Under the pieces are notes generated by a model. It had not been told where the DNA came from. It did not search any database and saw only the letters and a program-made list of their open reading frames with translations. A program made the translations under genes and the position numbers. DNA of 64,000 nucleotides from Qipengyuania flavescens (GTDB lineage Bacteria > Pseudomonadota > Alphaproteobacteria > Sphingomonadales > Sphingomonadaceae), in NCBI RefSeq assembly GCF_029688735.1, contig NZ_JARULD010000001.1, positions 186,001-250,000 on the forward strand, in the 5' to 3' direction. Below are positions 11,751-13,906 of the stretch, piece after piece. How positions within the stretch are numbered: the stretch's first letter is position 1; every line of letters starts with the position of its first letter.

Positions 11751-12500
11751 TTAAGCCGCGGCTTCTTCCGGCGGATTTTCCATTGCGCCGACGTCTGCAC
11801 CGCTGTCCTGCACGCCTTCGCCCTTGCCGGTGCGAGCCGCTTCGGCAACCGCATCGCAATAGAGCTTGATAGCGCGGCTGGCGTCGTCGTTGCCCGGGAT
11901 CGGGAAGGCGATGCCTTCGGGATCGACATTGGTGTCGAGCACGGCGACGACCGGGATGCCGAGGACGTTGGCTTCCTTGATGGCGAGGTCTTCCATGTTC
12001 GCATCGATCACGAACATCACGTCGGGAATACCGCCCATGTCGCGGATGCCGCCAAGACTCATTTCAAGCTTGTCGCGCTTGCGCGTGAGGTCGAGGACTT
12101 CCTTCTTGGTCAGGCCCTGCGTGTCGCCCGAAAGACGCTCGTCGAGCGTCTTGAGGTACTTGATACGCTCGCTGATCGTCTTCCAGTTGGTGAGCATGCC
12201 GCCCAGCCAGCGGTGGTTGACGAAGTGCTGGCCCGAGGCGAGCGCGGCTTCGCGGATCGCGTCCTGAGCCTGACGCTTGGTGCCGACGAACAGCACCTTG
12301 CCGCCCGAACGGGCAGTCTGGCTGATGAAGTCGAGCGCGCGAGCGAACAGCGGCACGGACTGCGACAGGTCGATGATGTGGATGCCGTTGCGCGCGCCGA
12401 AGATATACGGCTTCATGCGCGGGTTCCAACGGTGGGTCTGGTGGCCGAAGTGCGCGCCGGCCTCGATCAATTGCTGCATCGTGACGGTAGGAGCCGCCAT
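11751..12500 (-). CDS. rpsB: 30S ribosomal protein S2
   Basis: S2 is a small-subunit protein. The 249-residue product begins [20 protein letters not shown] and has the signature [15 protein letters not shown], the [13 protein letters not shown] segment and the PDVMFVID and [11 protein letters not shown] strands. A Glu/Ala-rich tail ends the protein. It is the first gene of the rpsB-tsf operon. The 350 bases upstream should contain its promoter and also hold a LexA box that more probably serves the divergent small gene at 12853. Confidence 0.97.
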
Positions 12501-12733
12501 AGTGTAATTCCTTTCCGGTTATGCCTCTGGAAAGCTGGAACCCGAATGCGGTCTTGTCCCGCGACGGGCACCGGTATGTGCGCCTTCCATGTGGATTTGC
12601 CCGCCTGACGAAACGCCCGAACTGGCCGAATCTACTGCGGACCGCGCGCCTGTAGCCGGTGGAGCGCGACAAATCCACCCTCCATTCGCCGCAAAATAAT
12701 GCAGCTTCGGCTCGAAAAGCGCTTGACTAGCGA

Positions 12734-12748
12734 GAACAAAAAGAGAAC
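12734..12748 (+). promoter_or_regulatory. LexA (SOS) box, GAAC-N7-GAAC
   Basis: The sequence GAAC, seven bases, GAAC is on the opposite strand GTTC-N7-GTTC, the direct-repeat LexA operator known from alphaproteobacteria. It overlaps a perfect 15-base palindrome (12743-12757, GAGAACA T TGTTCTC). A possible -35 element TTGACT (12723-12728) lies just upstream on the plus strand, with a weak -10 (AACATT, 12746-12751) inside the operator, so bound LexA would block it. The box is 105 bases before the ATG of the small membrane gene at 12853 and 234 bases upstream of rpsB. The motif match is exact; regulation is inferred. Confidence 0.65.
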
Positions 12749-12852
12749 ATTGTTCTCGTCGCCGGAACGTCCGGCGGGCAATCAGGGTTTTCCACTAGTT
12801 ATCCCCGGCCTGTCAACAGTGATCTGAACAGTAAGGGGCAGGAGAATTAGAG

Positions 12853-13095
12853 ATGTTCGCATGGTTCCTTGTCGCACTCGTCGCCCTCACGGCTGTCGTA
12901 GCATTGGGCGTGCTCGCCGATAGCGGACTGCGCTGGTGGTCTGCTTTCGGCCAGTTGCGGCGCGAAACGAAGCGAACTTCGGTGATCGCCGAGCTCCCCG
13001 CATTTCGCGCAGGGATTGCGCAAGGTGGTGCGGCTTTCGGTCGCTTGCCCTCGCGGCCGGACGTGATTGTCCGGCCGGCTACGCGCGCCGCTTGA
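12853..13095 (+). CDS. Small membrane protein, candidate SOS-induced
   Basis: This is an 80-residue protein with no family I can name. Residues 3-22 (AWFLVALVALTAVVALGVLA) form one membrane span. A basic amphipathic segment (LRWWSAFGQLRRETKR) and a C-terminal tail rich in Arg, Ala and Gly follow. The start ATG has GGAG eight bases upstream. The last 17 bases overlap the convergent pssA gene. A LexA box lies 105 bases upstream on a candidate promoter. SOS-controlled small membrane proteins such as Caulobacter SidA block cell division, so such a role is worth testing, but this is inference from context. It could also be a non-functional ORF. Confidence 0.55.
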   Translation: MFAWFLVALVALTAVVALGVLADSGLRWWSAFGQLRRETKRTSVIAELPAFRAGIAQGGAAFGRLPSRPDVIVRPATRAA

Positions 13096-13906
13096 TGCGT
13101 GAATACCGCAGCAGGGTGAACGGTAGCAGGGCGAGGTAGCCTATCCCGATAGCGCTCAGGGTCCACCACGGCTCGACGAGTAGCGCAGCGAACAGCAAGC
13201 CGACGAAGGCCAGTACCCACAACCGGATGCCGCGACGCGGACGCAGCGAGGTCCAGCTTGGCGTGGCCATGCTCGAAATCATCAGCAGCGCAGTTGCCAA
13301 CAACCACGGTGCGACGAAAGCCGGCTCGCGAAAGAAGTCGATCCCGGTCGCCGACCACACGAAGAATGGCATGAAGGCGAGCCCCGCCCCCATGGGCGCG
13401 GGAACACCGGTCAGGAAACCGAGCGATTTGTGCGGCTGGTCCTCGGTGTCGATCTGCGCATTGAAGCGCGCGAGACGAAGCGCGCAGCAAATTGCCAATG
13501 CGAGTGCCGCGAACCAGCCCCAGCGCGGCTCGTTCTGCAGCGACCAGAGGTACAGGATGATGGCAGGCGCTGTGCCGAAACTCAGCGAATCGGCAAGGCT
13601 GTCCAACTCCGCACCAAAACGCGATTGCGCCTTCAGCAAGCGCGCGATCCGCCCATCCATCCCGTCGAGAATGCCCGCGATGATGATGGCCACGGCGGCA
13701 GCCGCCCATTGCTCGGAAATCGCGAACCGTATGCCGGTCAGGCCCGAACAGAGCGCCGCTGCGGTGATCGCATTGGGGGCCATCGCCCGAAGTGAAAGGC
13801 CCCGACCGGATGGACCCAGCACGGGCTTTTCGTCCTCCGCCGCCTTCGGCCCCAACCGGGCGCGTTCCTCATGCTGGTCCGTCCCGTTGCGAGGTTCGAA
13901 ATTCAT
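13079..13906 (-). CDS. pssA: CDP-diacylglycerol-serine O-phosphatidyltransferase
   Basis: PssA transfers phosphatidate from CDP-diacylglycerol to serine, the first step to phosphatidylethanolamine. The 275-residue membrane protein carries the CDP-alcohol phosphotransferase motif D-G-x2-A-R-x8-G-x3-D-x3-D at residues 84-106, with all key residues present. It has about eight hydrophobic segments after an N-terminal charged stretch of some 40 residues. The start overlaps the psd stop as ATGA, so the two enzymes of the pathway are translationally coupled. The end overlaps a small plus-strand ORF by 17 bases. Confidence 0.95.

Follow-up and report, generated by a model that had tools for sequence, protein, structure and literature searches.

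How do bacteria that lack SulA hold back division while their DNA is being repaired? To our knowledge, the way in which SulA-less bacteria do so under DNA damage has been worked out for only a few species (PMC6051672). The family model of SulA (PF03846) finds nothing in 61 genomes, although it does match E. coli among 14 control genomes, in keeping with an earlier sequence-only reading of this locus which noted that no sulA homologue is known in the group. That reading covered a 64,000-nucleotide stretch of the Qipengyuania flavescens genome (the window), in which a LexA-type direct repeat lies between rpsB and a small open reading frame (ORF). It proposed that the repeat controls the ORF and that the 80-residue product could be an SOS-induced division inhibitor, and named as alternatives that the repeat serves rpsB or is fortuitous. 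Here, we use conservation across the Sphingomonadaceae to ask which gene the repeat belongs to, what kind of protein the ORF encodes and how it might act.

The positions that had been given for the repeat, the TTGACT, a palindrome and the ORF are all correct (Table 1). The motif GAAC-N7-GAAC, which we take to be the LexA motif of Alphaproteobacteria, also occurs at recA and lexA of the same genome, in the orientation opposite to the gene. In the window there is one match compared with 1.92 expected from shuffles, which is not significant; a single box in 64 kb is at chance level, and the claim is therefore not carried by the window sequence alone. Across the whole genome there are 84 matches, compared with 50 for the reversed control, and we judge the box to be real because it is conserved across loci. 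Scored with a matrix derived from other genera, the box at 12734 tops all 84 in its own genome with 30.6 (lexA 16.8, recA 14.2), a rank that is partly circular given that the matrix comes from orthologous promoters. Other high-scoring boxes in this genome (L002, L017, L030 and L282) lie at genes for a radical-SAM protein, an SNase-type nuclease, an S24-peptidase protein and a glyoxalase-family member, which are likely to be further SOS genes. The 15-base palindrome was considered as a second operator and rejected, being perfect in just nine of the 30 loci from the genus and two of the 114 from the family.

Table 1 Features of the locus, in positions of the window.
Feature	Position	Strand	Remark
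rpsB	11751..12500	-	Divergent neighbour; Pfam PF00318
-35 element CTTGACT (TTGACT at 12723-12728)	12722..12728	+	CTTGAC 6 bp ahead of the first GAAC
LexA-type direct repeat GAAC-N7-GAAC, GAACAAAAAGAGAAC	12734-12748	+	Part 12734..12749 with the trailing A
15-base palindrome GAGAACATTGTTCTC	12743-12757		7+1+7
Candidate -10 element AACATT	12746..12751	+	17 bp past the -35, overlaps the second half-site; assigned from spacing and the conservation of GAACAT
Three 9-mers with 2-bp gaps, TTTTCCACT, TTATCCCCG, CTGTCAACA	12788..12818	+	Degenerate 11-bp-phased array
Ribosome-binding site AGGAGA	12840-12845	+	Called from sequence
Small membrane protein gene, 80 aa	12853-13095	+	ATG start
Juxtamembrane motif codons, LADSGLRWWSAF	12913..12948	+	Best conserved part of the protein (alignment A1, 19 genus sequences)
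C-terminal Ala-Ala codons and stop	13087..13095	+	Possible ssrA-like degron
pssA (CDP-alcohol phosphatidyltransferase)	13079..13906	-	Convergent; Pfam PF01066

Within the genus, the ORF is present in 36 of 37 genomes, its own included, and is missing from one that is 75% complete (G013); a row with two in-frame stops (G044) is excluded from this count. Six of the seven named relatives of the ORF belong to different Qipengyuania species, and the seventh comes from an Erythrobacter MAG. Aligning box and ORF in relatives had been put forward as a check on the original proposal, and both are kept in 30 of 30 same-genus loci, with further matches in G001, G004, G010, G018, G022 and G024 standing outside this count. 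Read from the upstream side, the alignment of the 30 loci consists of an invariant CTTGAC, six further bases, GAACA, an invariant second GAAC, a leader of approximately 100 bases and the ORF. This invariant CTTGAC-N6-GAAC-N7-GAAC layout places the box between the -35 and -10 elements of a promoter that faces the ORF.

The protein evolves too fast to be relied on for searches across the family, and we therefore used rpsB as the anchor, taking the 931 bases upstream of it (fewer in two cases, at contig ends) from 149 genomes in 96 genera. A box faces away from rpsB in 114 of the 149 regions and towards it in 3. TTGAY precedes the box by 2–7 bp in 103 of the 114 loci, and an A follows directly in 113. 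With a looser criterion, a small ORF with a hydrophobic N-terminus comes after 112 of the 114 boxes; with a strict one (complete, 50–115 aa, with a membrane span) the figure is 110 of 114, compared with 2 of 570 dinucleotide shuffles. A reverse-complement control (101 of 114 matches) is invalid, because reading the opposite strand picks up the membrane spans of pssA. Counting exact and one-mismatch boxes together with a small ORF with an N-terminal span, 130 of the 149 genomes have the pair: 112 near rpsB, one in G031, nine outside the rpsB stretch, four with a one-mismatch box that retains TTGAC (G130, G154, G061 and G083) and four found by anchoring on pssA instead. The last four (G080, G090, G112 and G160) are from six family genomes that had been negative before; the ORF of G090 has 35 codons only, and no pair was found at pssA in the other two, G100 and G110. 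Among the other 19 genomes, 15 were covered to 931 bp of rpsB and by the exact promoter signature described below, two were negative at pssA too and two have a box without such an ORF. In G031 (L104, C1 745,300–746,500) there is approximately 0.9 kb of extra DNA and a gap of approximately 1.2 kb between rpsB and the box, with the box–ORF unit undisturbed.

These family counts rest on rpsB anchoring, pssA anchoring and the promoter signature. A profile search with the genus alignment (A1) yielded at least 36 of 249 and at least 27 of 196 genomes, which are lower bounds because such a search scores just part of the candidates of each genome. Beyond the family, rpsB anchoring in 22 genomes from other families of the order gave no pair. 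With pssA as the anchor, two of 24 genomes from other families in the order (a pssA match was available for 23) have a box ahead of a small hydrophobic ORF, L418 in G060 and L431 in G037. Both are from family f2, where the box is 0.7–1.1 kb from pssA and no TTGAC is in place; from these two weak single observations, the gene may predate the family.

The full promoter signature, TTGAC-N6-GAACA-N6-GAACA, is present in 81 of the 149 family genomes, and its reversed control has one match. Of its 116 sites, 57 lie within 5.5 kb of rpsB and 59 are farther away or on other contigs. We inspected 28 sites outside the 931-base stretches (26 among the 59 and 2 nearer rpsB): 16 precede uvrA, nine another small ORF with a membrane span, two a short gene and one a 471-residue ORF. 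Seven of the nine extra small-ORF sites belong to the 59, and those in G146 and G196 are 2–5 kb from rpsB. The short gene (L363 in G182, L364 in G103) resembles one for a 2'-5' RNA ligase, although Pfam returned no match over the 80 residues submitted, and it is not a usual SOS gene.

UvrA identity is confirmed by Pfam at L367, and the other loci share its N-terminal sequence; in 15 of the 16 (L327, L328, L331, L333, L341, L342 and L365–L374) the box is 24–26 bases before the script-called start. That a classic SOS gene has the identical geometry of -35 element and box argues, more strongly than anything else outside an experiment, that the promoter is LexA's. In Caulobacter, LexA control extends to both sidA and uvrA (PMC12700426). 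Taken with its conservation, this promoter architecture makes it very probable that the gene at 12853-13095 is under LexA control. The SOS rows in Table 1 of a paper on anoxia in Sphingopyxis granuli, the portion of that paper available here, contain no obvious copy of the small gene (PMC6472365).

The encoded protein consists of an N-terminal span, the motif LADSGLRWWSAFGxLR, an Arg-rich tail and a C-terminal Ala-Ala. Across the 19 sequences of alignment A1 the motif is kept right after the span, the tail is variable and the span is without charged residues. AlphaFold predicts for the 19 sequences one helix (residues 2–45) and a disordered tail, at a mean pLDDT of 66.3. Hydrophobicity, charge and this prediction agree with the single membrane span and basic region that had been proposed from the window. 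A charge within the first five residues occurs in only 6 of the 110 family ORFs, and the median net charge past residue 24 is +7; under the positive-inside rule, this charge pattern suggests an N-out/C-in topology. By its substitution ratios the ORF is under purifying selection as a protein: pN/pS lies between 0 and 0.29 for the nine closest pairs and is 0.71 for the tenth, and over 423 pairs the median is 0.71 with all values below 1. The median is 0.54 for the N-terminal half and 0.83 for the C-terminal half.

Searches for relatives gave no match in Pfam for the protein and ten relatives, none in NCBIfam for the protein itself and none in a PDB sequence search with the 19-member profile. PADLOC and PHROGs returned nothing useful for the 19 members (a single PHROG with an E-value of 0.025, for 1 of 19). 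The literature within reach, which includes PMC6472365 and PMC13384398 in part and mostly does not extend to subscription journals, yielded no paper on the small gene or on a sphingomonad LexA regulon.

An Ala-Ala end is found in 98 of the 110 family ORFs, compared with 2 of the window's 45 coding-like ORFs and 5 of 57 at other loci of the same genome, and the organism's own tmRNA tag ends in ALAA. The entropies of the last two codons are, by position, 0.22, 0.25 and 1.32, and 0.36, 0.45 and 0.87; the first two positions are near-fixed and the third varies, as expected if the frame of the small ORF is the constrained one. The pssA residues opposite these codons are also conserved (Arg/Lys, Arg, Gln/Arg, Arg). 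Since the tail is antisense to the basic 3' end of pssA, both its composition and the Ala-Ala partly reflect a shared constraint. The specificity of ClpXP and FtsH would fit removal through an Ala-Ala end once repair is over, and a C-terminal degron is our guess here, one that we hold with some doubt.

Between promoter and start codon, the family leaders contain words that resemble the DnaA box TTATCCACA. Exact TTWTNCACA words on the coding strand occur in 35 of the 114 family leaders (0.8 expected from shuffles), and 75 words differ from it by one base at most, compared with 8.9 in shuffles; same-sized control stretches contain one exact word on the rpsB side and none 400 bases downstream. 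The words are phased: 58 pairs are 11 bases apart, the next most common distance is 2 (25 pairs, from overlapping words) and there is a rise at 22–23, which corresponds to 9-mers in the same direction with 2-bp gaps. Leaders of 108–140 bases have a word in 51 of 60 loci and those shorter than 97 bases in 2 of 35. Searched genome-wide, TTWTCCACA-N6-CCACA has 37 sites in 34 of the 149 genomes and none for the control, with 14 of them at the small-ORF locus. We inspected 18 of the 23 array sites elsewhere; 12 have varied neighbours, and no LexA box lies within 200 bases of any of the 18. The other six, in six family genomes (L384, L389, L394, L402, L403 and L404), lie just before dnaB, which is confirmed by Pfam in five of them.

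In Caulobacter, dnaB depends on DnaA, and DnaA boxes have been predicted for it, according to the accessible part of PMC8203912. This dependence, together with the position of the array before dnaB, makes DnaA the likely reader of the array, and the array before dnaB is itself likely to be a site bound by DnaA. In the window, the words TTTTCCACT, TTATCCCCG and CTGTCAACA have 1, 2 and 3 mismatches to TTWTNCACA. Among the same-genus leaders, 2 of 30 have an exact box (0.3 in shuffles) and there are 25 words with at most one mismatch (2.6 in shuffles), with TTTTCCCGT at the first array position in many. Given the mismatched words of the window and TTTTCCCGT in the genus, the case for DnaA is a strong one in other genera and a weak one in Qipengyuania flavescens: we consider an input from DnaA probable in the family and a possibility somewhat short of even odds in Qipengyuania flavescens. 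An RNA element was rejected for the leader of Qipengyuania flavescens, whose fold is not unusual (z -1.39). In E. coli, uvrB, recN and dinJ are repressed jointly by LexA and DnaA, as reported in the available portion of PMC6015884. The present locus resembles them in having a LexA box and DnaA-type boxes at one promoter region, and differs in that the boxes form an 11-bp-phased array in a leader that belongs to a gene for a small membrane protein, where an action of DnaA is a prediction.

SulA is a soluble FtsZ inhibitor, with which the 80-residue protein would share only the functional idea of an SOS division block, and SosA of Staphylococcus is said to be another SOS-induced division inhibitor. 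Other counterparts are found in Caulobacter crescentus, namely SidA, which binds FtsW and FtsN, and DidA, which binds FtsN. According to the accessible part of PMC4211646, SidA (29 aa) is SOS-induced and DidA (71 aa) is independent of the SOS response, and both stop division via FtsW, FtsI and FtsN. Like SidA, the protein is alphaproteobacterial, small and predicted to be membrane-bound, and its gene is predicted to be LexA-controlled; unlike SidA, it has 80 residues, a basic tail and the motif LADSGLRWWSAF, a distinction that is drawn from the description of SidA and not from its sequence. It is similar to DidA in size and in its single span, whereas the presence of a LexA box sets its gene apart from the SOS-independent didA. 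In Bacillus, the SOS division inhibitor YneA has one N-terminal span, is mostly outside the cell and is cleared by proteases (PMC6051672, in part); the same paper, from 2018, states that the recovery step was unknown in the cases studied earlier. The N-terminal span is shared with YneA, but the charge pattern here suggests that the tail is cytoplasmic. Promoter, size and predicted topology are those expected of a sphingomonad counterpart of SidA or YneA, whereas the larger size than SidA, the fast-evolving tail and the lack of a sequence relative of known function speak against a role in division. By analogy, that the protein works like SidA is our best guess, and we do not claim that it is a SidA.

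From promoter geometry, conservation, translation-type selection and the array, all read at the level of sequence, and from the predicted single helix, we infer a course of events that adds binding by LexA and DnaA, a topology, a division target and proteolysis. LexA would sit between the -35 and -10 elements and keep the promoter of 12853-13095 off. DNA damage would then lead, through RecA-driven LexA cleavage, to a short burst of an 80-residue single-span protein of the inner membrane, probably inserted N-out/C-in with its basic Arg/Pro-rich tail in the cytoplasm. Septation would most likely be held back via contact with divisome proteins in the membrane, as with SidA, DidA and YneA, and the protein would afterwards be cleared, perhaps by ClpXP or FtsH acting on its Ala-Ala C-terminus. 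The DnaA-box-like array in the transcribed leader of many relatives would probably add an input from the state of replication. We assign a probability of about 0.5 to 12853-13095 being an SOS gene for a division inhibitor of the SidA/YneA kind. A more elaborate version, a family-wide two-signal checkpoint in which LexA gates on damage, a cooperative DnaA array in the leader gates on the state of replication initiation and the Ala-Ala tag clears the protein, appears rather unlikely to us. Equally speculative is its corollary, that division would be held only if DNA damage coincided with an unfavourable state of replication, by a separately evolved sphingomonad counterpart of SulA or SidA.

That the box regulates rpsB would be in line with its being adjacent to this divergent gene. 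However, within 55 bases around the box, TTGAY on the rpsB strand occurs just 10 times in the 114 loci, compared with 103 of 114 facing the ORF, and across 110 loci the distance from box to ORF (median 115, sd 22.5) is tighter than that from box to rpsB (median 223, sd 51.0). The pair also persists away from rpsB: box and ORF are on a contig other than that of rpsB, or far away from it, in seven genomes and 2–5 kb off in two more. In seven of the nine cases outside the rpsB stretch the pair is beside pssA and psd, and by synteny the box–ORF unit travels with the pssA end and not with rpsB. Promoter direction, spacing and synteny hence contradict a role of the box at rpsB, which we regard as very improbable. 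Still less credit is due to a chance box ahead of a spurious ORF; one or two boxes per 64 kb are indeed expected, but conservation over the sampled genera, codon-level selection and the shuffles all contradict this reading, and its probability is close to nil. The link from box to small gene, which the sequence-only reading had inferred, gains strong support from there being one promoter that faces the ORF and from the pair being kept without an adjacent rpsB.

With LexA control granted, the protein could still act elsewhere than at the divisome. Tail to tail, the small ORF and the 3' end of pssA share 17 bp (13079-13095), and of the 106 family loci (of 114) in which pssA could be located, 105 have such an overlap; because this arrangement is conserved, an SOS transcript may run antisense into pssA. 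The transcript, or the protein by adjusting phosphatidylserine synthase, would in that case act on pssA–psd and slow membrane synthesis during repair, for which both the overlap and the adjoining pssA in seven of the nine cases outside the rpsB stretch would speak. Yet the constraint is at the protein level and stronger in the N-terminal half (0.54) than in the C-terminal half that meets pssA (0.83), G196 and G146 have no pssA within the 2–3 kb examined, and tail-to-tail synteny can last without function, all of which makes an effect on pssA–psd quite improbable. A better, though still unlikely, candidate is a LexA-controlled membrane peptide that slows growth, like TisB, a dormancy-inducing membrane toxin according to the title of PMC11575346, or a helper in envelope stress. 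Small size, a hydrophobic span, basic character and an SOS promoter would all fit, but the uncharged span, the conserved juxtamembrane motif and the long basic tail suggest a partner-binding anchor more than a pore, and the single leader fold, at z -1.39, is not unusual. A divisome inhibitor of the SidA/YneA kind is the reading that we prefer.

For the Sphingomonadaceae, the locus provides a defined and conserved candidate division inhibitor across the family, present in 130 of 149 sampled genomes and without a Pfam match in the 11 members tried. It also shows that a promoter can lead to a small gene whose protein evolves very fast, where the protein itself would not serve as the guide. What is new is the 11-bp-phased DnaA-box-like array in the leaders of many relatives, which is also present before dnaB and through which the candidate division inhibitor may have a second control by the replication initiator DnaA.
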